A stretch of DNA of 22,291 nt from a virus: the IMG/VR virus record IMGVR_UViG_3300009374_000043, positions 1 through 22,291 of that record. One strand, 5' to 3'. Both the position numbers and the translations under genes were made by a program. This document shows, piece by piece, positions 2,739 through 18,815 of this stretch. Below the pieces are notes generated by a model, which was not told the DNA's origin, searched no databases, and saw only the letters and a program-made list of their open reading frames with translations. Every line of letters starts with the position of its first letter. Within the stretch, counting starts at the first letter, position 1.

Positions 2739-2768
2739 ATACATATAAACAATAAAAAGGAGTTAAAA

Positions 2769-3599
2769 ATGAAAAAACTAATATTATTAACATCAATTGC
2801 TTTACTAGCATCTTGTAGTTCAACTGGTGGCAATTATTATGCAACTGATAACTATGGTTTAATTAGCAATGTTGGTAATTCATTAAGTGCCAATAAGTCT
2901 TATTCATATCAACATGTTGAAATGGATGGTGAGTTAGTAGAGAGATTTGAATTAAGACATGGTGATTGTGGTACTGATTATAAATCTGACTATACTGATT
3001 GTGGTAGAGGCAAGGGTAGACAAGAAGTAGACACCCAAACAACCGAACATGAAGTTATTGAAGTATTAGACTATACAAAACCTAATATAGTATGGTATTC
3101 ATACTCAATTTACTTCCCTAAAGATTATGAAAATTATCAAAGGGATTATAATGGAATATCCACTATTTATGGTCAGGTTAAGTTGTATGGATGGGATATG
3201 CCAATGTGGAGTGTAAAGGGTGTGGAAGATGGACTTATGTTTGAAGCAGATACCTCAGGTGGTACATGTATCATTGCCCCTTGGGAAGAGGTTAAAGGAA
3301 GATGGACTAATATTACAGTAAGGGCAGATTATGATACTAAACATCGTGTTAATGCTCCTAACGGGTATATGTTTGATCCAAAAACAGACTATTCATATGC
3401 TGATGTTTGGGTAAATGGTGAACAAGTACCGGGGTGTATTACCTTTCAACCACTACTCAATAGTTGGACTCCAGGTCAATCCAGAAAACCTGATATGAGC
3501 AATAGAGTTCACTTTAAGCATGGTATCTATAGTACATTTGCTGATAAATATTTTCCACCACAAGTGGTGTATTACAAGGATATTAAAATACATAAATGA
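2769..3599 (+). CDS. Secreted lipoprotein, polysaccharide lyase-like
   Basis: The start is placed at 2769 because AGGAG sits seven bases upstream; the frame is open further 5' but runs into the promoter. The 276-residue product opens with a short signal peptide (Lys-Lys, then hydrophobic 4-13) and a lipobox LASC with Cys16, so it should be exported and lipidated. The body resembles the heparin lyase I / Pfam polysaccharide lyase jelly roll. I see ERFELRHGDC near 58-67, a WYSYSIYFPKDY strand, GRWTNITVRADY, ADVWVNGEQVPG, and near the C-terminus HFKHGIYS plus VVYYKDIKIHK. This family cleaves acidic polysaccharides or binds glycans. A membrane-anchored version made in the infected cell, rather than a tail depolymerase, is unusual. 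It stands alone behind its own promoter. The lyase assignment is by recalled motif pattern; catalytic residues were not confirmed. Confidence 0.7.
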   Translation: MKKLILLTSIALLASCSSTGGNYYATDNYGLISNVGNSLSANKSYSYQHVEMDGELVERFELRHGDCGTDYKSDYTDCGRGKGRQEVDTQTTEHEVIEVLDYTKPNIVWYSYSIYFPKDYENYQRDYNGISTIYGQVKLYGWDMPMWSVKGVEDGLMFEADTSGGTCIIAPWEEVKGRWTNITVRADYDTKHRVNAPNGYMFDPKTDYSYADVWVNGEQVPGCITFQPLLNSWTPGQSRKPDMSNRVHFKHGIYSTFADKYFPPQVVYYKDIKIHK

Positions 3600-9741: not shown

Positions 9742-11991
9742 ATGAACCTAGAAGTGACAAAAAGGGATGGTCATAAAGAACCATTTCACCTATCAAAAAT
9801 CCACAGAGTCCTAGACTGGGCATGTGAAGGTATTACAGGTGTATCAGTATCAGAAATTGAGCTTAAAGCAAATGTTCAATTATATGATAACATGGATACA
9901 GACCACATCCACGAGTTACTTATTAAAAGCTCGGCTGATTTAATATCAGAACAAACTCCAAATTACCAATTCGTCGCGGCACGCCTAGTTAATTATAAGC
10001 TTCGTAAGCATGTGTATGGTCAATTCGAACCTACCGATGTATGTTCGCATATTGAAAATAACATTGCCCTTGGTGTATATGATGATGATATTCTTAACCA
10101 TTATACCAAAGCAGAATTACAGTATGTAACTGATGAAGTTATTAAGCATGAGAGAGACATGGACTTTACTTATGTTGGGATGGAACAATTCAGAGGTAAA
10201 TACCTAGTTCAAAATAGAACAACAGGTAAGATTTATGAAACACCACAAATGTTATATGCTATGATTGCTTTAACATTGTTTGCTTCTTATAATGGTAAAC
10301 GTATGAAGTATGTAAAAGACTTCTATAATGCCATTTCACAATTTTACATTTCGTTACCAACTCCCATCATGGCTGGGGTGCGTACACCGACAAGACAATT
10401 TTCATCTTGTGTGGTACTTGAGTCTGATGACTCATTAAACTCTATTAATGCCACAGCTTCATCTATTGTCCAATACATTTCAAAGAAGGCTGGTATTGGT
10501 ATCAATGCGGGTAAAATTAGAGCTGTTGGTTCACATATTGGAGATGGTTCTATTGCCCACACAGGAGTGATACCATTCTTAAAGTATTTTAAAGCAGCTG
10601 TTAAATCATGTTCTCAAGGTGGTGTAAGAGGTGGGGCCGCAACAGTATATTTCCCGCTATGGCATTTAGAGTTTGAAGACCTTGTTGTATTAAAGAACAA
10701 TAAGGGTACAGAGGAAACTCGTGTACGTGAACTTGACTACTGTTTCCAATTCAATAAGTTAATGTATGAAAGACTATTGACTGGTGGTAATATTACGTTC
10801 TTCTCTCCAGATGAAGTACCTGGTTTATATGAAGCCTTTGCTGAAGATCAAGATGAGTTCAAACGCTTATATGAGAAGTATGAAAAGAAAAGAAACATTC
10901 GTAAAAAGACATTGCCAGCCCTTGAAGTATTTTCTAAGTTCTTAACAGAAAGAAAAGAGACCGGAAGAATATACTTACAGAATATAGATCATGCAAACAC
11001 TCATGGTTCATTCGATGAAGCAGAAGCTCCTATTAAACAAAGTAACTTATGTTGTGAGATTAATCTTCCAGCCTCAGGCCTTGATGATTATAATGATGAT
11101 GAGAGTGGTGAAATTTCTTTATGTACATTAGCAGCAATCAATTGGGGTATGATTAATGATCCTAAAGACTTTGAAAAGTATTGTGACCTATCAGTAAGAG
11201 CATTAGATGCATTACTTGATTATCAAAGCTATCCTGTTAAGGCAGCAAAAACATCTACCTTTAATAGAAGACCTCTTGGTGTAGGTATCATTAACTTTGC
11301 TTACTTCCTTGCGAAGAGAGGTCTTAAGTATAATGATGAAGCATTAGAAACTGTCGATGAATATGCAGAGGCTTGGTCATATTATCTTATTAAGGCTTCT
11401 AATAAATTGGCACAAGATAAAGAAGCATGTCCTAAGTCATGGCAAACAAAATACTCTGAAGGAGTATTGGCAATTGACACATATAAGAAAGAAGTTGATG
11501 AATTGGTTAAGCCACAGGAAAGAATGGATTGGGGTTCGCTTAGAGAAGATTTAAAAGAGTTTGGCATTCGTAACTCAACTCTTATGGCTCTTATGCCAGC
11601 AGAGACAAGTGCTCAAATATCCAATAGTACAAATGGTATTGAACCACCAAGAGCTTTAGTAAGTTATAAACAAAGTAAAGATGGTGTTATGGCTCAAGTA
11701 GTACCTGGTATTCATAACCTTAAAAACAAATATGATCTTCTTTGGGACCAAGAGAGCCCGGAAGGTTATTTAAAAATTATGGCAGTGCTTCAGAAGTATA
11801 TCGATCAAGGTATCTCTGTTAACACCAGTTATAATCCGGAACATTATGAAGATAATAAAATCCCTATGAGTGTAATGCTTAAGGATCTTATTACATTTTA
11901 TAAGTACGGTGGGAAACAACTATATTATTTTAATACGAATGATATGGCTGGTGATGTGAGTGACGATGATTGTACATCATGTAAAATTTAG
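9742..11991 (+). CDS. nrdA: Class Ia ribonucleotide reductase large subunit NrdA
   Basis: The 749-residue protein aligns by eye with Escherichia coli NrdA over its full length. An ATP-cone region opens the protein (VTKRDGHKEPFHLSKIHRVLDWA). Active-site residues are in place: Cys223 (RQFSSCVV), the NLCCEI motif with Asn435, Cys437 and Glu439, Cys461, the PAETSAQ loop, and the tyrosine pair Tyr728-Tyr729 (QLYYFN). The tail ends CTSCKI with the redox pair Cys744/Cys747. It reduces ribonucleoside diphosphates to deoxy forms together with NrdB, using reducing power from the glutaredoxin encoded at 14185. It is driven by the promoter at 9679. Confidence 0.97.
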   Translation: MNLEVTKRDGHKEPFHLSKIHRVLDWACEGITGVSVSEIELKANVQLYDNMDTDHIHELLIKSSADLISEQTPNYQFVAARLVNYKLRKHVYGQFEPTDVCSHIENNIALGVYDDDILNHYTKAELQYVTDEVIKHERDMDFTYVGMEQFRGKYLVQNRTTGKIYETPQMLYAMIALTLFASYNGKRMKYVKDFYNAISQFYISLPTPIMAGVRTPTRQFSSCVVLESDDSLNSINATASSIVQYISKKAGIGINAGKIRAVGSHIGDGSIAHTGVIPFLKYFKAAVKSCSQGGVRGGAATVYFPLWHLEFEDLVVLKNNKGTEETRVRELDYCFQFNKLMYERLLTGGNITFFSPDEVPGLYEAFAEDQDEFKRLYEKYEKKRNIRKKTLPALEVFSKFLTERKETGRIYLQNIDHANTHGSFDEAEAPIKQSNLCCEINLPASGLDDYNDDESGEISLCTLAAINWGMINDPKDFEKYCDLSVRALDALLDYQSYPVKAAKTSTFNRRPLGVGIINFAYFLAKRGLKYNDEALETVDEYAEAWSYYLIKASNKLAQDKEACPKSWQTKYSEGVLAIDTYKKEVDELVKPQERMDWGSLREDLKEFGIRNSTLMALMPAETSAQISNSTNGIEPPRALVSYKQSKDGVMAQVVPGIHNLKNKYDLLWDQESPEGYLKIMAVLQKYIDQGISVNTSYNPEHYEDNKIPMSVMLKDLITFYKYGGKQLYYFNTNDMAGDVSDDDCTSCKI

Positions 11992-12003
11992 GAGAAATAT
12001 ATT

Positions 12004-12291
12004 ATGTTAGAAAGAACAAGTAACGGGTATTTAGTAGACCCATCAATTTGGTCAGAAGAGATCATGCATGAAATGGCAAAGGAAGATGATATTGTATTAA
12101 CTGAATCTATGGTTAATCAAATCTTAAAGGCTAGAGAGTATTTTGATGAGAATTCAAGTGTACCACCAATTAGAACATTTTCTAAATACGTTGGTATTGA
12201 TAAGAAGATTCTATTCAAAGAATGGTTAACTGGCCCTATGAAGCCTATTACAAAGTATGGTGGAATGCCCCAACCGACGGGTTGTGTGTAA
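12004..12291 (+). CDS. TusE/DsrC-family sulfur-relay protein
   Basis: The product has 95 residues. The fold signature of DsrC/TusE is recognisable along its length: GYLVDPSIWSEEI, then a helix REYFDENSSVPPIRTF, LFKEWLTGPMKPITKYGGMPQPTGCV at the end. The single Cys is the penultimate residue (Cys94), the catalytic CysA of the family. The second Cys used by true sulfite-reductase partner DsrC is absent (the aligned position is in KPITKYGG). It is therefore more TusE-like, a persulfide carrier in tRNA 2-thiouridine synthesis, though the TGCV ending is typical of DsrC. AGGAG overlaps the nrdA stop, so it is translated from the nrdA message. Phage dsrC-like genes are known from marine viruses. Confidence 0.85.
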   Translation: MLERTSNGYLVDPSIWSEEIMHEMAKEDDIVLTESMVNQILKAREYFDENSSVPPIRTFSKYVGIDKKILFKEWLTGPMKPITKYGGMPQPTGCV

Positions 12292-12299
12292 AATAAGGG

Positions 12300-12328
12300 T
12301 TTACTTTTGAACGAAAATGTGTTATAAT
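12300..12328 (+). promoter_or_regulatory. Sigma70-like promoter upstream of the membrane protein and tmRNA
   Basis: -35 TTTACT at 12300-12305 and -10 TATAAT at 12323-12328 have a 17-bp spacer. The -35 flank GGGTTTACTTTTGAACG and the -10 flank TGTGTTATAATAT match the other members of the set. It lies 16 bases before a late box, so the downstream gene has tandem early and late promoters. Confidence 0.88.
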
Positions 12329-12343
12329 ATATTATATAAACAC

Positions 12344-12351
12344 TATAAATA
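12344..12351 (+). promoter_or_regulatory. T4-type late promoter box
   Basis: TATAAATA in the context CACTATAAATAAA, identical over 13 bases to the box at 8504. It precedes a structured leader and a well-formed ribosome site (TAGGAG) before the gene at 12449. Confidence 0.75.
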
Positions 12352-12356
12352 AATTA

Positions 12357-12373
12357 GCTATTCATTGAATAGC
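12357..12373 (+). other. Perfect 7-bp hairpin in the 5' leader of the small membrane protein
   Basis: GCTATTC and GAATAGC pair around a three-base loop, directly after the late promoter box. A transcript starting about a turn downstream of the box would carry all or part of this hairpin at its extreme 5' end. Such placement can protect mRNA from decay. A second weaker stem (GTTAAA/TTTAAC, near 12414-12431) lies ahead of the ribosome site. The role is inferred. Confidence 0.5.
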
Positions 12374-12448
12374 AATGTTTTTCAACAATGGGAGTTGAGA
12401 ACATCCGAAATGATGTTAAACTATTTTTTAACAATATAGGAGAAATCT

Positions 12449-12667
12449 ATGTTAGATAAAGTTGTAGGCTGGATCAAGGCCGGAACTGAAGCAGGTGTAG
12501 CATTAATTGCTTTTGCAATTGTATTACAAGTAATCTTCGGTGGAACTGTACCGTTTGTTGGTGGTGATATCATCGCTACTATTACTGGTATCGTTGCTCA
12601 ACTTGGTGCTCAAGGTCTAGTTGGTCTTGTTGCGGCTGCTGTACTATACAAGATCTTCGATAAGTAA
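12449..12667 (+). CDS. Small Gly/Ala-rich membrane protein, 72 aa
   Basis: The 72-residue product has a short amphipathic start (MLDKVVGWIKAGTEAG) and then two hydrophobic stretches: about 16-40 (VALIAFAIVLQVIFGGTVPFV) and about 54-69 (AQGLVGLVAAAVLYKIF). It is probably inserted in the inner membrane as a hairpin. Tandem early and late promoters, a structured leader and a strong TAGGAG site predict high expression throughout infection. Holin, virion membrane-interacting protein or pore-like roles are all possible; I recall similar short proteins in marine phages but know no function. Confidence 0.78.
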   Translation: MLDKVVGWIKAGTEAGVALIAFAIVLQVIFGGTVPFVGGDIIATITGIVAQLGAQGLVGLVAAAVLYKIFDK

Positions 12668-12779
12668 GATGTGAGAAATCCGTTGAAATATACGGGTCAG
12701 TTTTATTAGTTTTTCTGCATAACCCAAAGAACTAAGAACCACTTTCAGACTGAGGATCCTCGGTCGCTATAATGGAAGA
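12668..12779 (+). promoter_or_regulatory. Intergenic region with palindrome and candidate tmRNA promoter
   Basis: No gene is seen here. A near-perfect inverted repeat occupies 12749-12766 (GACTGAG, loop GATC, CTCGGTC; one G-T pair). Immediately after it is a -10 TATAAT at 12768-12773. A weak -35-like TTCAGA at 12744-12749 would give an 18-bp spacer. The repeat sits inside the spacer, where a protein could bind, or it may be the end structure of the upstream message. The start of transcription would be near 12780. Confidence 0.4.
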
Positions 12780-13005
12780 TAAGGATTGGCTAAAGTCGAT
12801 TGAGTGCTTCCACCTAATTTGGTATAAGGCGTGGGTTATAACCATAGCCTTTACCATTTACTCTTTATTGGAGTTATGTAGGACACGAGTTCAATTCTCG
12901 TCGACTCCACCAATGAAGGCATTGTTCCCCGCAGTGTCTTCTTTAGTGGGGTTGCTAGGTTTCGACTAGGTAACAGAAGATTTAGAGTTGTAAGACCAAG
13001 TAAAC

Positions 13006-13038
13006 GCAAACGCAAATACTTACAGTTTAGCTGCTTAG
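13006..13038 (+). other. tmRNA proteolysis-tag reading frame, ANANTYSLAA
   Basis: GCA is the resume codon, followed by AAC GCA AAT ACT TAC AGT TTA GCT GCT and the stop TAG. The encoded tag, ANANTYSLAA, has the standard AN start and the LAA end recognised by ClpXP in bacteria; E. coli has ANDENYALAA. The tag is ten codons long. This short frame is translated only when the tmRNA enters a stalled ribosome, so it is not a conventional gene. Confidence 0.9.
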
Positions 13039-13061
13039 GACCGGCTAATGGGGATTTAGGC

Positions 13062-13089
13062 AGGGTGTTCCTTATTATCAAAACACCCT
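13062..13089 (+). terminator. Hairpin at the 3' end of the tmRNA coding piece
   Basis: AGGGTGTT and AACACCCT form an 8-bp stem around a 12-base loop. No T-run follows, so it may define the 3' end by processing or weak termination and could let transcription continue into nrdB, which starts 26 bases later. Confidence 0.55.
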
Positions 13090-13114
13090 CCAACAAATTA
13101 TAGGGGATTATATT

Positions 13115-14188
13115 ATGCATTCAGTATTTCAAATTAATACTAAAGACTATTTAACTAAAACAATGTTCTTTGATGAACCGGTTGATATCGCTCGATACGA
13201 CCAAGTTAAATATCCACATATCCAAAAGTTACAGGAGAAAATGTCTTCATTCTTTTGGACACCAGATGAGATTGATGTTACAAAGGATAAGATTGACTTT
13301 AATAAGTTAACCGAGTCTGAACAACATATCTTTACTGCTAATCTTAAAAGGCAAATACTACTTGACTCTGTTCAAGGTAGATCCCCTAACATTGCATTAC
13401 TTCCGATTTGTTCTTTACCAGAGGTAGAGTTACTTATTGAAACGTGGGCATTCTTTGAGACGATTCATTCTAAATCATATACACATTTAATTAGAAATGT
13501 ATACCCTAATCCATCAATGGTATTTGATGAAATGGTAACCATTAAAGAGATTGTAGAATGTGGAGATGATGTAAGTAAACACTATGATGCTCTTATTAAT
13601 TTTAAAGGGAAGTATGGGTCATACGAACATAAGAAAGCTTTATATTTAACAATGATGTCTATCTTTATTTTAGAAGGTATCAGATTCTATGTTTCATTCG
13701 CATGCTCTTGGGCCTTTGCAGAACTTAAGAAAATGGAAGGCAACGCTAAGATTATTAAGATGATTGCAAGAGATGAGAATACTCACTTGTCTGCCTCTAT
13801 ACATATTATCAAAGGTCTTATGAAAGAAGATGAAGACTATGTTAAGATCAAAGATGAAACTGAAGATGAAGTGATGGGTATGTTTGCCTCAGCAATTGAA
13901 CAAGAAAGAGATTGGTGTGACTACCTATTTCAAGGTGGTTCAATGATTGGTCTTAACTCTAGTTTATTAAAAGAATATATAGAATGGATTGCATCAAAAA
14001 GAATTAAAACTGTGGGTTACTCTGTACCTTTTCATGTTAGTAAAGCTAACCCATTACCATTTACTGAAAAATGGATTGGTGGTGGTAATGTACAGGTAGC
14101 ACCCCAAGAAACTGAAATCACCTCTTATGTAATTGGTGGTGTTAAACAAGACGTAGAAGAAAATACTTTAAAAGGATTAAGTTTATGA
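13115..14188 (+). CDS. nrdB: Class Ia ribonucleotide reductase small subunit NrdB
   Basis: The product is a 357-residue ferritin-like protein. The di-iron ligands are all visible: Asp84, Glu115 and His118 (FFETIHSKSY), Glu187 (FILEGIR), Glu221 and His224 (ARDENTHL). Tyr122, the radical-bearing tyrosine, is in the SKSYTH segment. The C-terminal tail ends in an acidic-hydrophobic peptide that docks on NrdA. It generates the tyrosyl radical for ribonucleotide reduction. It is separated from nrdA by the TusE-like gene, the membrane protein and the tmRNA. Its stop overlaps the glutaredoxin start (ATGA). Confidence 0.96.
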   Translation: MHSVFQINTKDYLTKTMFFDEPVDIARYDQVKYPHIQKLQEKMSSFFWTPDEIDVTKDKIDFNKLTESEQHIFTANLKRQILLDSVQGRSPNIALLPICSLPEVELLIETWAFFETIHSKSYTHLIRNVYPNPSMVFDEMVTIKEIVECGDDVSKHYDALINFKGKYGSYEHKKALYLTMMSIFILEGIRFYVSFACSWAFAELKKMEGNAKIIKMIARDENTHLSASIHIIKGLMKEDEDYVKIKDETEDEVMGMFASAIEQERDWCDYLFQGGSMIGLNSSLLKEYIEWIASKRIKTVGYSVPFHVSKANPLPFTEKWIGGGNVQVAPQETEITSYVIGGVKQDVEENTLKGLSL

Positions 14189-14436
14189 AGAATATTATAT
14201 GGACAACTAAGTACTGTCCATTTTGCGATAAAGCAAAGAAGATGATGGAAGACAGAGGGATGACATTTGAAACTAGATTAGTTGATGGCGAAATGTGGAC
14301 CTTAGATAATTTATTAACCTATGCACCAGATGCTAGGACCTATCCTCAAGTATGGTTAGGCGAAAAACATATTGGTGGATGTGATGACCTTGAAGCCCAC
14401 TTTGCATTACAGGAGATGGGAATAAATGGTTTGTGA
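14185..14436 (+). CDS. Glutaredoxin
   Basis: The 83-residue thioredoxin-fold protein has the dithiol active site CPFC at residues 11-14. It has a TYPQVWLG segment supplying the cis-proline, and a GGCDDLEAHF ending that binds glutathione in glutaredoxins. In T4 the equivalent electron donor (NrdC) serves the phage ribonucleotide reductase, and the ATGA overlap with nrdB strongly suggests the same job here. An extra Cys sits in GGCDD near residue 66. Confidence 0.92.
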   Translation: MKNIIWTTKYCPFCDKAKKMMEDRGMTFETRLVDGEMWTLDNLLTYAPDARTYPQVWLGEKHIGGCDDLEAHFALQEMGINGL

Positions 14437-14587
14437 ACAATGTAATTCAGAATATGAAATTCTGGTTGATGTTGATGGCAAAGAGATGGTATCAGCGCCT
14501 GAAATGGAGATTGAAACTCCTTATTGCCCGTTTTGTGGATGTGAATGTGAGGACTGGCGAGATGGATTCGACGAAGTGGACGTATGA
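14426..14587 (+). CDS. Small zinc-ribbon protein, 53 aa
   Basis: The frame (MVCEQCNSEYEI...PYCPFCGCEC) has CxxC near the N-terminus and CPFC-x-C-x-C near residue 34, a four-cysteine zinc-ribbon arrangement with an acidic tail. It overlaps the glutaredoxin end by 11 bases and the GIY-YIG gene by 26 bases. Similar mini zinc ribbons are common beside nrd genes in T4-like phages. The function is unknown, possibly protein or nucleic-acid binding. Confidence 0.78.
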   Translation: MVCEQCNSEYEILVDVDGKEMVSAPEMEIETPYCPFCGCECEDWRDGFDEVDV

Positions 14588-15008
14588 AGGTAAAGAATTT
14601 ACCTCAGATGATATCAACGAGTATTATGGTTTTATTTACCGTATCACTAATTTGGATAATGGCCATGATTATATTGGACGTAAGTACTTCAAGAGTAAAC
14701 GAAAGCTTAAACCACTTAAAGGAAAAAAGAATAAGCGATCTAAAATTGTTGAAACCGACTGGCAAGATTATTATGGCTCAAGTAAAAGATTATTAGAAGA
14801 CATCGAGTTATTAGGTAAAGAAAACTTTAAGAGAGAAATAATTGAGTTGTGCTTGACACGGGGCAACACAAATTATGCTGAATTAGTATGGCAAGTGAAG
14901 GAAGATGTATTATTAAGAGAAGACAACTACAATGGTATTATTGCTATTAAGATAGGTGTTGGATCAGTGAAGAATTATATAATGGAGAATAAAGATGGTA
15001 ATAGTTGA
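14562..15008 (+). CDS. GIY-YIG-family endonuclease-like protein
   Basis: The start at 14562 is preferred because the longer frame from 14433 would run through the zinc-ribbon gene. The 148-residue product begins MDSTKWTYEGKEF and carries YYGFIYRITNLDNGHDYIGRK. This is the GIY...YIG pair in a GFIY/DYIG form with the following Arg. Then come a Lys/Arg-rich loop, DWQDYYGSSKRLLEDIE and GKENFKREIIELC, and a Glu (NYAELVWQ) that can serve as the metal ligand. The pattern is close to Seg-like or freestanding phage GIY-YIG proteins. It may nick DNA. No intron sits nearby, so a homing role is not evident. Confidence 0.82.
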   Translation: MDSTKWTYEGKEFTSDDINEYYGFIYRITNLDNGHDYIGRKYFKSKRKLKPLKGKKNKRSKIVETDWQDYYGSSKRLLEDIELLGKENFKREIIELCLTRGNTNYAELVWQVKEDVLLREDNYNGIIAIKIGVGSVKNYIMENKDGNS

Positions 15009-15858
15009 TTATAATGGAATTGGAATTGGCTCAATTATGGGGCAATTGGGTAGGGGTGAAGAATTAAGTGAAGAGCTTATTCGACATGTCATTTTAAATA
15101 ACTTAAGATCATATAGAGTTAAATATCCAGCTCATACTTTTGGCGAAATGGTTATTGCATGTGATGATAGATCTTGGAGACGAGATATCTTTCCTCAATA
15201 CAAAGCAAATAGAACAACCTCAAAGGAAACTGACAAGTATGATTGGGATGAAATTTTTAGAATCCTTAATCTTATCACGGCTGAAATCACCGAGAACTTT
15301 CCTTACCCAGTAATCAAGATAGAAGGTGCAGAGGCAGATGATATTATTGGTGCTCTTGTGACATATAAGACTCAACCTATGATGGCAGAAAAGGTAGTTA
15401 TTATTTCCGCTGATAGGGACTTCATTCAATTGCACATTAAAGGTGAAGTGATTCAATTTTCTCCTATGCAACAGAAGATGGTAACACCACTAGAATCAAC
15501 CGCGGCCAGATATGCATTCGAACATCTTATGAAGGGTGATTCTGGTGATGGTATTCCTAATGTTCTATCCCCGGACAATTCATTTACGGATAAGATTAGA
15601 CAAACACCAATGCGTAAAAAGTTAATTGATGAATGGTGGGAAAATAGAGATAATCTTAAAGCTGTTATGCCGGAAGAAGCATTTAGAAACTATATCAGAA
15701 ATAGAGAGTTAATTGATCTTGATAGAACTCCACAAAAAATCAAAGATGAATCAATAACACAATTGGAAAGTTATAAATATCCTAAAGAAGGAAGTGTTTT
15801 GAATTTTTTAATCGAGAAAAGAATGAATTTATTAATTGAATGTGCAGGTGAATTTTAG
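14995..15858 (+). CDS. rnh: RNase H, T4 Rnh-like 5' nuclease
   Basis: The 287-residue product matches T4 RNase H (a FEN-1 family 5' to 3' nuclease, not an RNase HI). It has VIVDYNGI at the start and IACDDRSWRRDIFPQYKANR. EGAEADDIIGAL and IISADRDFIQLH carry the acidic metal ligands, and SPMQQKMVTP and LMKGDSGDGIPNV contain the helix-three-turn-like region. It ends in NEF-like AGEF. It removes RNA primers from lagging-strand fragments. The start overlaps the GIY-YIG gene by 14 bases. A TATAAATA at 15772 inside the gene may be chance. Confidence 0.93.
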   Translation: MVIVDYNGIGIGSIMGQLGRGEELSEELIRHVILNNLRSYRVKYPAHTFGEMVIACDDRSWRRDIFPQYKANRTTSKETDKYDWDEIFRILNLITAEITENFPYPVIKIEGAEADDIIGALVTYKTQPMMAEKVVIISADRDFIQLHIKGEVIQFSPMQQKMVTPLESTAARYAFEHLMKGDSGDGIPNVLSPDNSFTDKIRQTPMRKKLIDEWWENRDNLKAVMPEEAFRNYIRNRELIDLDRTPQKIKDESITQLESYKYPKEGSVLNFLIEKRMNLLIECAGEF

Positions 15859-15859
15859 A

Positions 15860-16270
15860 ATGGAAATACATGAAATCCTCAAAGCGGTAGGGGAAGTAAA
15901 CTCAAGGGCTATGAAAGCTCAAATACTAATGGACAATGACTCTGTTGCATTACGTAGTATCATGAGGATCAACTTTGATCCTGATTTAATTATATATGTA
16001 TCTAATGATCTTGACTGGACACCAGCTCCTAATTCGTCTCAATGGTATACATCATTAAAGAATGAGACTAAGAACTTAGTACCATTAATCAAAAGACCTC
16101 TTGATAAAGCACATCAAGAACGAAATGATTATAAATTCTCTGAAATTTTAGAAAGCATGGATCCACTCGATGCTAATATTCTAATGGATGTCAAAAACAA
16201 AAAACTTAAGGTCAAAGGGTTAACACTCAAATTGGCCGAGGAAATTTGGGGACGACGAATCTTTAATTAA
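15860..16270 (+). CDS. Conserved hypothetical protein, 136 aa
   Basis: The start at 15860 follows the rnh stop by one base; an upstream in-frame ATG at 15836 lies inside rnh and is less likely. The protein begins MEIHEILKAVGEVNSRAMKAQIL. It has VALRSIMRINFDPDLIIYV in the middle and ends LKVKGLTLKLAEEIWG. I recall the same layout (IHEIL..., ALRxxL..., E(S/I)(M/H)PxDAxI...KxKKL, LT.KLxEExxP) in a conserved family of cyanophages and T4-like phages, without known activity. It follows DNA-processing genes. Confidence 0.75.
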   Translation: MEIHEILKAVGEVNSRAMKAQILMDNDSVALRSIMRINFDPDLIIYVSNDLDWTPAPNSSQWYTSLKNETKNLVPLIKRPLDKAHQERNDYKFSEILESMDPLDANILMDVKNKKLKVKGLTLKLAEEIWGRRIFN

Positions 16271-16271
16271 C

Positions 16272-16358
16272 ATGGATATGACACCAAACGAGATTTTAGT
16301 TTTATTGGTTTTTATGTTTGGTTTATTTGCTATGATTTGGTGCACAAACCACGACTAA
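16272..16358 (+). CDS. Tiny membrane protein, 28 aa
   Basis: The frame encodes MDMTPNEILVLLVFMFGLFA and then MIWCTNHD, a single transmembrane helix of 15-18 residues with an acidic N-terminus. It fits exactly in the gap between two genes. The family is unrecognised and its expression is uncertain, but the composition argues for a real micro-protein. Confidence 0.45.
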   Translation: MDMTPNEILVLLVFMFGLFAMIWCTNHD

Positions 16359-16362
16359 TATT

Positions 16363-16581
16363 ATGCCAACATACGACTTTAGACATAACGACACCGGCGA
16401 AGAATGGGAAGCCACAATGGGTTATAATGATAAGAAAGCCTATTGTGAAGAACATAATTGTGCCCACGTAATACTATCATCACCTAAATTTGTTTCAGGT
16501 ATTAAAGATGTTTGGTCTCAGACTGATGAAGGTTTTAAAGAACGAATGAAAGGTATTAAAAATGTTGGTGAATGCAAATAA
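16363..16581 (+). CDS. FmdB-like small phage protein, 72 aa
   Basis: The 72-residue product begins MPTYDFRHNDTGEEWEATM, the opening typical of FmdB-type regulatory/zinc-ribbon proteins that T4-like phages carry (MPTYxFxxxxTGEExE). It ends with SGIKDVWSQTDEGFKERMKGIK, like the phage versions (SG...K.DSGFK..L..IK). The canonical FmdB CxxC knuckles are missing, which is also usual in the phage branch. The function is unknown. Confidence 0.75.
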   Translation: MPTYDFRHNDTGEEWEATMGYNDKKAYCEEHNCAHVILSSPKFVSGIKDVWSQTDEGFKERMKGIKNVGECK

Positions 16582-16586
16582 TATAA

Positions 16587-17678
16587 TTGAAAAATAAATT
16601 TATACGATTGCTTAAAGCAAACCACCACCGGATAGATTTTATAAGTTATATGGGTGGATGTGGTGGTGAATATTTGGCATTAACTATATCAAATTTATCT
16701 AATGACTATCCATCATACAGTATGGATAGGTTAAACCAAAATGATATTCATACAAATAGGTGGAGTTTTTATGATGATCCATTTTTTGGTTTTTGGGGTA
16801 AATTAGTAAAATATTCAAGAAACAATGATATAACCTTTACTGATTGGGGTTCAATTGCTGATGTGTGGTGTGAATTTTATAAAGATAAAGATTTAAATAT
16901 ACATATAAAATCAATTGAGGATCATTTTGATAAGTACCCTAGGATGCTAATTAGAATGCACGGACCTTTCAAAGGCTTTAAAGAATTATTTACCAAATCA
17001 AAACATATCAGTATAACAGTTGAGACATCTGAGTGGTATGCCTATATTAAATATCTAGTCTTAATTAAGATACTTGGTATTTCATACCCCGATAAAGATG
17101 TTGCTTTAAATTTTATACGTGATTCGTGGAGTGTCGCCAATAAAGTAGGGGCATTTAAAATAATAGATAAAGCGATTTTTATGAATCGGATGAATATTAT
17201 ATTAAATAGTTCTGATGATCTTAGAGCACATAGTGTTATAGCATTTGTTGATCCTTGGGCATTAGGTTATCGTGGTTCATACGAAGATATTATAAGTAAG
17301 GTTTTAGCAAAAGATCCTATTGAATATAATAAATTTGAAACATTGTTGGCAACACCTGAAGGGATAAGAACTCTCGCATTTAGTGATGACACTATTAAAC
17401 CAGAGTTCAATATTGTTGAAGGTGTTAAGGTTAACACCTTCTTAGAGGAAAAATACGAACAACATAAAACTATAAGACCTATGTTTTATGCCGGTGACTT
17501 AGAGAAAATAGGTATCGCTGAATTATTATATAGTGACAAATTACCTATTTTATTCAATGTTGATATTGATAAATATAGTAAGCAAATGTTAATATGGCAT
17601 CAACGTAATATGGATATGATATACGATTTGGAGTTAGATTTAAATATACTATTAGTGAATGACTTATGGGAACTATAG
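16587..17678 (+). CDS. Hypothetical protein, first of two tandem paralogues
   Basis: The likely start is TTG at 16587; the first ATG (codon 22) would cut into a motif shared with the next gene. The 363-residue product has IDFISYMGGCGGEYLALTISNLS at 16-38. Next is a middle block RMLIRMHGPFKGFKELF (119-135), and near the end WHQRNMDMIYDLELDL. The next gene has the same three blocks. The FISxxGGxGxEYL loop resembles the glycine loop of sulfotransferase-like P-loop phage proteins that begin FISGxHGHFLEY, but that link is from memory and weak. No signal peptide is visible. Confidence 0.72.
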   Translation: MKNKFIRLLKANHHRIDFISYMGGCGGEYLALTISNLSNDYPSYSMDRLNQNDIHTNRWSFYDDPFFGFWGKLVKYSRNNDITFTDWGSIADVWCEFYKDKDLNIHIKSIEDHFDKYPRMLIRMHGPFKGFKELFTKSKHISITVETSEWYAYIKYLVLIKILGISYPDKDVALNFIRDSWSVANKVGAFKIIDKAIFMNRMNIILNSSDDLRAHSVIAFVDPWALGYRGSYEDIISKVLAKDPIEYNKFETLLATPEGIRTLAFSDDTIKPEFNIVEGVKVNTFLEEKYEQHKTIRPMFYAGDLEKIGIAELLYSDKLPILFNVDIDKYSKQMLIWHQRNMDMIYDLELDLNILLVNDLWEL

Positions 17679-18784
17679 CAGAAAAGAAAAGATTTATAGC
17701 AGCAATGGGATCAATGGCTGATACATTTGATTTTATTCATGGTGACGGTGGTTCAGGTGCAGAATTTATTTGTATATATCTATCAAATAATTGTGATAGA
17801 TATATACCATTCAATGATAATACCTCAGGTGCATGGATGTCATATAATAGATTTGGATATAAAGAAAGATTTATGAAAAATTTCTTTTTAACTTTAGGTA
17901 TGCACTCTATAAATTTCAATACAAAGTTTGACACCTGGGGTGAGGTTTATGAAGGTTGGGACATCATGACGACTCGTAATATGGAAGTTAGAAATAATAT
18001 TATTGAAGGAATCGAAGGCTTTAAAGAAATGTATCCAGGTAAAAGAATCTTATGTAGAACACATGATGCGTTTTATGGATTTGAGAAATTATTTCCTAAC
18101 TCAGATAGTATTCATTTAAAAGCTAAAAATGAGAAATGGTTAATGTATAGAGAACTTCTGGTTGGTATAAAGGTGATGGGATCCGAAACAGGGCTTGAAG
18201 GTGATAAATTATATACACATTTAATGAATACATATGATACATTAGCCAGAACTGAAAATTCAGGTGTTATGACACCTACAGCAATCATAAATAAGTCTCA
18301 AGGATGGATGAAACCAACAGAATTTTTATCCAGAGATGAATTTAGTAAAAGAATTAAGATTATTATAGATTCAGACACTCCAATGAATACACATTATCCC
18401 ATTGCACTTATGATGCCTGAACGTGTTGGAGCATCAAAAGAGGAGAAAAAATCATTATTGGATATAGAGCCATTCCTATTAAATAGTAAAGATTGGTATT
18501 GGAATACTAGTTATGCTGGCCACAAATATAAAAGAAGAATGAAATTCACAAATTGGTTTAATGATTCATACAACCCAGAGGAATGGAATAGAGCTGGTAA
18601 ATATTTTTGTTTATCAGAATATATATTTGAAGATGACTTTGCACTTCACTACAATATAGATCCTATTAAATTTCACAAAGCTATTTTCGATTGGCATGAA
18701 AAAAACATGGATCTTATATATGAAACAGAAATATATTTGGAAGAACAATTGCTCAAACCAGATATAAATTATTTTGTAAAATAG
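17666..18784 (+). CDS. Hypothetical protein, second tandem paralogue
   Basis: The 372-residue product overlaps its paralogue by 13 bases. Shared blocks are FDFIHGDGGSGAEFICIYLSNN (21-42), KRILCRTHDAFYGFEKLF (126-143) and FDWHEKNMDLIYETEIYLE near the C-terminus. Between blocks the two proteins differ in loops and have diverged strongly, so the duplication is old. The conserved glycine loop and the RTH/RMH motif look catalytic or ligand-binding. Transferase activity (sulfo- or glycosyl-) is a guess. No RBS of note; it is probably translated by coupling. Confidence 0.73.
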   Translation: MGTIAEKKRFIAAMGSMADTFDFIHGDGGSGAEFICIYLSNNCDRYIPFNDNTSGAWMSYNRFGYKERFMKNFFLTLGMHSINFNTKFDTWGEVYEGWDIMTTRNMEVRNNIIEGIEGFKEMYPGKRILCRTHDAFYGFEKLFPNSDSIHLKAKNEKWLMYRELLVGIKVMGSETGLEGDKLYTHLMNTYDTLARTENSGVMTPTAIINKSQGWMKPTEFLSRDEFSKRIKIIIDSDTPMNTHYPIALMMPERVGASKEEKKSLLDIEPFLLNSKDWYWNTSYAGHKYKRRMKFTNWFNDSYNPEEWNRAGKYFCLSEYIFEDDFALHYNIDPIKFHKAIFDWHEKNMDLIYETEIYLEEQLLKPDINYFVK

Positions 18785-18786
18785 GG

Positions 18787-18815
18787 TTTACTTTTGTCCT
18801 GTTTTGTGTTATAAT
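18787..18815 (+). promoter_or_regulatory. Sigma70-like promoter of the exonuclease gene
   Basis: -35 TTTACT at 18787-18792 and -10 TATAAT at 18810-18815 have a 17-bp spacer, with flanks GGGTTTACTTTTGTCC and TGTGTTATAATA. The -10 ends six bases before the ATG at 18822, so the transcript should begin at or within a base or two of the start codon. Confidence 0.88.

Follow-up and report, generated by a model that had tools for sequence, protein, structure and literature searches.

The stretch analysed here, referred to as the window, is a contig of 22,291 bases from a marine bacteriophage with T4-like genes. Its exonuclease most resembles the one encoded by phage C48C1, which is filed under Kyanoviridae. 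The window carries two adjacent genes, P1 and P2, whose coordinates and lengths, together with the TTG start of the first, were as given in a sequence-only reading made beforehand (Table 1). The glycine loop, the RxH motif and the WHxxNMDxIY ending, which that reading had named as common to both proteins, were all located in P1 as well as in P2. Positions 10587-16776 of the window, which take in the start of P1, recur unchanged in a second contig, L004. The GC content is 29.9% in P1 and 30.6% in P2 compared to 33.9% in the contig, and among 201 segments of 2.2 kb the five lowest in GC all lie over the pair.

Table 1. Features of the P1/P2 locus (positions in the window)
Feature	Position	Strand	Remarks
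72-aa gene, read as FmdB-like	16363..16581	+	directly upstream of P1; flanks the slot on the left, also in relatives
P1, first copy, 363 aa	16587..17678	+	TTG start (16587-16589), immediately after an in-frame TAA
P1 glycine loop FISYMGGCGGE	16638..16670	+	
P1 RMH	16953..16961	+	ends a predicted strand, residues 120-125
P1 WHQRNMDMIY	17595..17624	+	within the last predicted helix, residues 327-352, low confidence
Overlap of P1 end (including stop) and P2 start, 13 nt	17666..17678	+	
P2, second copy, 372 aa	17666..18784	+	ATG start
P2 glycine loop FIHGDGGSGAE	17732..17764	+	
P2 RTH	18056..18064	+	
P2 WHEKNMDLIY	18692..18721	+	
Sigma-70-like promoter TTTACT-17-TATAAT	18787..18815	+	right boundary; found also in relatives without the pair
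Conserved phage exonuclease	18804..19481	+	right flank of the slot; ORF listed from TTG 18804, ATG 18823 likelier start

BLASTP aligned P1 with P2 over 381 columns at 23% identity and 44% positives (E = 1e-23), and their Smith-Waterman score was 248, compared to a mean of 38.9 (sd 5.8) and a maximum of 65 for 1000 shuffles of P2. The significant similarity on which the proposed duplication depended was therefore found, and a chance resemblance is rejected by both tests. These alignments indicate that P1 and P2 are full-length homologues whose likeness extends beyond the three motifs, so that the description of the proteins as sharing these motifs but little else was right about the motifs and understated the rest. 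Searching the contig with P2 returned P2 and P1 alone.

We then considered the flanks of the pair, using the best 80 of 182 relatives fetched by their exonuclease. In L006-L008, whose exonuclease is 91% identical to that of the window, no match to P1/P2 was found; the next features after the FmdB-like gene of L006 and L008 are a similar TTTACT-TATAAT promoter and the exonuclease, and the blastn alignment of these two loci to the window restarts at 18764, shortly before the end of P2. Since near relatives run from the FmdB-like gene through the promoter to the exonuclease with the pair missing, the pair represents an insertion (or a loss in the relatives), and the empty slot bears out the impression, gained earlier from the sequence, of an insert flanked by small conserved genes and a promoter. 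The promoter at the right boundary was singled out because it is conserved in relatives and not by its scan score, since a scan over the region gave 22 sites versus 19.9 expected, which is not above chance. The 72-aa upstream gene had no Pfam match at E ≤ 0.01. Several other exonuclease loci have a gene that we read as PhoH-like in the slot.

A similar pair occupies the same slot in a second phage lineage, represented by L032 and L033, which are 99.99% identical across their shared stretch and have the gene order FmdB-like, PhoH-like, P1-like, P2-like, exonuclease; L087, L088 and L090 are further contigs of the L032 population and therefore not independent cases. When P1, P2 and the first and second L032 copies (L032a and L032b) were compared, every pair was similar at E 4e-23 or better, with BLASTP identities of 35% for P1-L032a, 30% for P1-L032b, 27% for P2-L032b and 24% for L032a-L032b, next to the 23% between P1 and P2. 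In an unrooted tree of seven members of the branch that contains them (branch A, below), with L132, L135 and L224b taken as the outgroup, P1 and L032a were split from all others with SH-aLRT/UFboot values of 95/91 in the untrimmed and 96/92 in the trimmed alignment. Since P1 groups with the first copy of L032, the duplication is older than the split of the two phage lineages, in agreement with the old tandem duplication that had been proposed. The grouping of P2 with L032b was weak (45/60 untrimmed, 60/63 trimmed), and it is less certain that the second copies form one clade; a separate duplication in each lineage is rejected by the tree, although not fully closed because of this weak clade. 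The copies overlap by 16 nt in L032 (6910-6925) versus 13 nt in the window, stops included and in the same relative frame, and the age argument is carried by the tree, the overlap not being used as a sign of common origin.

Searches with established profiles gave nothing above chance for P1, P2 and the L032 proteins in Pfam, PHROGs, NCBIfam and PADLOC (for P1 and P2, no Pfam family at E ≤ 10), and ten relatives from the A, B and C branches described below reached best E-values of 0.017 in Pfam and 0.015 in PHROGs, none beyond chance. Neither did tblastn of eight members (P1, P2, P0003, P0004, P0007, L224b, L145 and L231) find a match in 50,697 phage records, and when viral contigs were scanned for exact peptides of P2, P1 and A1, L004 alone was found. 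A scan for the WHxxNMDxI pattern gave 40 stretches, in which the best profile match besides L032-type contigs had an E-value of 0.29. The best E-values in PDB sequence searches (0.083 for P2, 0.069 for the profile A2 and 0.01 for the profile A4) were all to unrelated proteins.

By contrast with these library searches, profiles made from the proteins themselves found relatives. The four-protein profile (A2) had three matches at E ≤ 1 in 50 related records, namely the L004 contig, the L032 contig and contig G038, which contains a new member of branch A (440 aa, E 1.1e-5). This new member, L132, was aligned with branch A by hhalign at E 1.1e-6 over 164 columns, and L224b matched the P1/P2 profile at E 5e-10. 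From the loop of the G038 protein we derived the pattern [IV]xYxGGxGGE, which occurs in 115 stretches of viral contigs; the family proteins open with h-x-Y-x-GG-x-GG-E. Within the loci fetched by this loop pattern and with L132, 81 ORFs with the loop near the N terminus, together with the seven known A members, separated into branches B (64), C (13) and A (10) and one singleton (L185), which was left out of the family counts. Removal of rows more than 85% identical and of the truncated duplicate L169 left 23 B, 10 C and 6 A members.

Comparison of the branch profiles gave E-values of 3.8e-7 for A-B and 2.1e-9 for A-C, these full-length scores being inflated because the loop pattern itself had served to select members of B and C. 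With the loop removed, the scores of 26.4 (A-B) and 25.7 (A-C) still exceeded the maxima of 17.2 and 16.5 from 100 column shuffles each, at E-values of 0.007 and 0.011; L224b was left out of this comparison because it lacks the pattern used for cutting. Among 6502 ORFs, the C profile found P1 (E 5e-4) and L032a (E 1e-4). The B profile (A4) matched one of 26 records, the L032 contig, at E 5.9e-4 and over 27 loop positions only, and had no match in L004. As judged from these profiles, P1 and P2 belong to a wider family, a placement that is firm within branch A, with modest evidence tying it to B and C. The family is uncharacterised, as had been said, but calling it a two-gene family was too narrow, since at least three branches occur in uncultivated phages.

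The family was seen in viral contigs only, and none of the four libraries searched has a profile for it. In genome contigs, the A2 profile search found zero relatives, and a stricter loop pattern gave nine stretches, none of which was read as a family member (none at E ≤ 1 with the A or C profile, and two weak B matches at E 0.0019 and 0.0026). The stricter pattern detects only [IV]xYxGGxGGE[FY] members, and the term virus-only therefore rests on that scan together with the A2 search. We also considered a tandem pair in phage C48C1 (345 and 337 aa, likewise with a 13-nt overlap), which had no profile match and was read as a glycosyltransferase and a UDP-galactopyranose mutase.

Whether the copies are always paired had been posed as a question for a profile search, and the answer is that they are not. 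Two adjacent copies were present in 14 of the 98 loci with a profile match, and these came from five phages: three loci are of the window type and eight of the L032 type (both A-A), and the others are L147 (C-C), L175 (B-B) and L224 (C-A). Within the available stretches a single copy was found in 63 of the 64 B loci, in 11 of the 13 C loci and in the A relatives L132 and L135. Obligatory pairing is ruled out by this single-copy majority; pairing recurs but follows no rule. In both the window and L032, the first copy has the loop GGCGGE, whereas the loop of the second is altered, to GGSGAE in P2 and AGAAGE in L032b. Because B and C were chosen by GGxGGE, the arrangement of one intact and one altered loop is unbiased for the window and L032 only, where it hints at a division of labour between the copies.

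We next turned to predicted structures. The AlphaFold model of P1, made from four sequences, was poor (pLDDT 60, mostly low confidence past about residue 140). At its N terminus it has a strand, the glycine loop and a helix, and another strand ends in RMH. Foldseek found nothing below 0.001 for it, and its best structural match was to a clamp-loader ATPase (Z 3.8), while tyrosylprotein sulfotransferases made up 4 of the 50 listed rows (Z 3.2-3.5) among weak matches to P-loop folds. Because the P1 model is poor, the fold was inferred through the family, via a B-branch relative whose AlphaFold model from 23 sequences had a pLDDT of 91.4 and a pTM of 0.89. Sulfotransferases accounted for 49 of the 50 rows that VIA-align listed for this model, at Z 8.8-10.2 and with 170-189 residues aligned; two of the 49, Teg12 and Teg14, are counted as sulfotransferases from background knowledge of these proteins. 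VIA-align took its list from the Foldseek top 1000, treats rows within 1 as tied and had 126 of 999 chains reaching Z 8; models without a clear match commonly score Z 7 to 8. Even so, a single fold takes up nearly all of the listed matches, and does so across the whole B model. Foldseek by itself gave a less sharp picture: its top four matches were chains of heparan 3-O-sulfotransferase 3 (E 1.6e-3 to 5.6e-3), none being below 0.001. A viral structure library placed five uncharacterised phage proteins on top (E 3e-5 to 5e-4), comprising A0A6J5LYI0 and A0A6J5R281 of uncultured Caudovirales in BFVD and three more, which resemble the B model in structure; it also returned a marseillevirus protein annotated as 'Sulfotransferase domain protein' (E 4.6e-4) and one from Synechococcus phage S-SCSM1 annotated as 'Sulfotransferase' (E 8.4e-3).

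The structural matches leave room for an ordinary P-loop NTPase of the nucleotide-kinase type, in which the glycine loop would bind a nucleotide triphosphate and the sulfotransferase match would reflect a shared P-loop core. The weak P1 model is indeed nearest to AAA-type ATPases, and the B model also matches UMP/CMP kinase, next in the Foldseek list with a probability of 0.97, and the kinase-like YorR, the one listed VIA-align row that is not a sulfotransferase (Z 9.1). That row covers 2-199, however, against 49 sulfotransferase rows over nearly the full B model, and the listed loops contain no Walker-type GK[ST], although some C members have GGEK; we regard the NTPase reading as quite improbable. 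That P1 and P2 have a sulfotransferase-like fold and belong to this family is, on the models, likely. The earlier guess of a sulfotransferase-like enzyme is supported as a predicted fold reached through the B relative and not through P1 or P2 themselves. Residues typical of the donor loop are missing.

PAPS-dependent sulfotransferases (heparan 3-O-sulfotransferases, tyrosylprotein sulfotransferases and SULTs; PF00685 and PF13469) share the predicted fold over the whole B model. In sulfotransferases the donor loop follows strand 1, and a catalytic histidine or glutamate follows a later strand; in SULTs a histidine follows a core strand, as it does in the family models. The family differs from them in having a GGxGGE loop in place of [KR][ST]G[TS], in matching no sulfotransferase profile and in having no C-terminal GxxGxxK/R. 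The donor-loop pattern [KR][STAN]G[TS], R[ND]P and the C-terminal GxxGxx[KR] were each absent from all 39 non-redundant members (6 A, 23 B and 10 C), R[ND]P, which stood for the 3'-phosphate-binding arginine and serine after a core strand, being too strict a pattern because the control sulfotransferase L258 has RDL there. PF13469 matched nothing in the window at E ≤ 10, no curated Pfam family was found for P0003/P0004 or P0007, and ten relatives had no sulfotransferase match at E ≤ 1.

All three branches, A, B and C, keep the glutamate-bearing glycine loop that follows the first strand. R-x(1,2)-H occurs in 5 of 6 A, 20 of 23 B and 7 of 10 C members, as a sequence pattern of which at least one B match lies in a different stretch; L224b and some B and C members are without it. 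An arginine and a histidine follow a later core strand in both the P1 and the B model, and the equation of RxH in A with RxDHG in B is our own reading, hhalign having positioned them differently. An asparagine in the last helix is invariant in B and in the four window-type proteins and absent from L132 and L135. The loop glutamate would be odd for a phosphosulfate site, and PAPS is a doubtful candidate for the actual donor.

These departures could also mean that catalysis has been lost and that the proteins are binding proteins or paired subunits with a sulfotransferase fold, acting for instance in superinfection exclusion or as inhibitors of a host or defence protein. The missing canonical donor loop would fit this, as would the further alteration of the second-copy loops (GGSGAE and AGAAGE) and the position of the pair in the window, away from sugar genes. 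Nevertheless, the loop glutamate and, in most members, RxH have been kept over a very large divergence, as an active site would be, and ten members gave no defence-related match beyond chance, so that we consider a non-catalytic role unlikely.

Canonical phage sulfotransferases (Sulfotransfer_3) offer a comparison, since they too are phage-encoded. Our control, L258, which came from one of 36 records, matched PF13469 at E 2.7e-16, above its cut-off, and lies near genes read as tail-fibre-like and sugar-modifying-like, as does the A relative L132. It differs in its loop, GLPRSGST, and in its profile match, and by sequence it is no closer to A, B and C than shuffles are: in hhalign comparisons of A, B and C with L258, L259 and L260, shuffles reached the score in 24, 20 and 40 of 100 cases. 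L259 (G062 37235-37468) and L260 (G022 37901-38092) are marginal Sulfotransfer_3 matches below the cut-off, and each adjoins a secreted solute-binding-like protein that we read as TctC-like. Their loops are AGAPGSKWS and TGAPGSMWS; phages therefore depart from the canonical loop in more than one way. Phage sulfotransferases are reported in OM43 phage genomes by the sole paper found to discuss them (PMC10580990), which describes their function as unclear.

The surroundings of the relatives point towards sugars. Among the 13 C loci, 10, of which several are close relatives, have a C gene or C pair following a phosphomannomutase gene, a context found in none of the 64 B loci and in none of the 80 loci from the exonuclease search (best 80 of 182). 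This phosphomannomutase is of the eukaryotic type (PF03332, E 1.9e-24 in L224), at 2779-3525 in L224, at 3037-3735 in L147 and in eight more C loci; it sits between a 5'-3' exonuclease and the C gene, with a methyltransferase gene as well in 5 of the 10. An A relative adjoins Glyco_transf_8-like and 2OG-oxygenase-like genes, with Pfam scores under the curated cut-offs, in surroundings that we read as tail-fibre-like, and B genes lie among structural-type genes, as read in a few loci. The P1/P2 pair of the window has no sugar gene next to it. More 2OG-oxygenase-like relatives (35-38% identity) are present in related phages at L048 532-1209 and L074 9-497. An SbmA/BacA-like transporter gene (PF05992, E 8e-138) adjoins the C-C pair of L147 at 3-950 on the minus strand.

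The sugar-related genes beside C and A relatives might favour the glycosyltransferase that had been named as an alternative enzyme. However, the structural matches listed for the B model include no glycosyltransferase, and no glycosyltransferase profile matched P1, P2 or 13 relatives in Pfam, or P1, P2 or eight relatives in NCBIfam; we consider this alternative very improbable.

Taken together, the pair is real, old and well defined, and it probably represents a diverged offshoot of a known fold, the family consisting probably of divergent transferases of the sulfotransferase fold, perhaps directed at glycans. By analogy with sulfotransferases, we propose that the GGxGxE loop after the first strand would replace the phosphosulfate-binding loop and hold the donor, and that the RxH histidine after a later core strand would serve as the base to activate the hydroxyl of the acceptor. 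This acceptor may be a sugar on a glycan of the virion or of the host surface, as suggested by the phosphomannomutase beside C and the Glyco_transf_8-like and 2OG-oxygenase-like genes beside an A relative. Next to the intact-loop copy, the one with the altered loop (P2 or L032b) could be a partner that is specialised or weakly catalytic. For P1 and P2, glycan-directed group transfer is a tentative assignment, and so, with this mechanism included, is the model-based picture of anciently duplicated tandem phage enzymes with a sulfotransferase-like fold, which we hold as our best explanation. A bolder version, in which a virus-only superfamily has exchanged the PAPS loop for a glutamate-bearing glycine loop that takes another activated donor, the intact and altered copies of window-type phages together modifying a surface glycan of host or virion, seems rather unlikely. 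A family without a library profile now has a predicted fold and a testable chemistry, and if its members are active, they would provide the sulfotransferase fold with a further way of binding a donor and marine phages with a means of altering glycans.

Two further features of the window lie apart from the pair. A lipoprotein-like gene at 2763-3596 on the plus strand matches Polysacc_lyase (PF14099, E 3.5e-10), and its protein had no tblastn homologue at E ≤ 1e-5 in the fetched loci. At 12820-13129 on the plus strand, ARAGORN identified a permuted tmRNA gene with the tag ANANTYSLAA, which Rfam RF04321 matches over 12860-13038 with 70.5 bits. Permuted tmRNAs are typical of alphaproteobacteria, and this gene may point to an alphaproteobacterial host.
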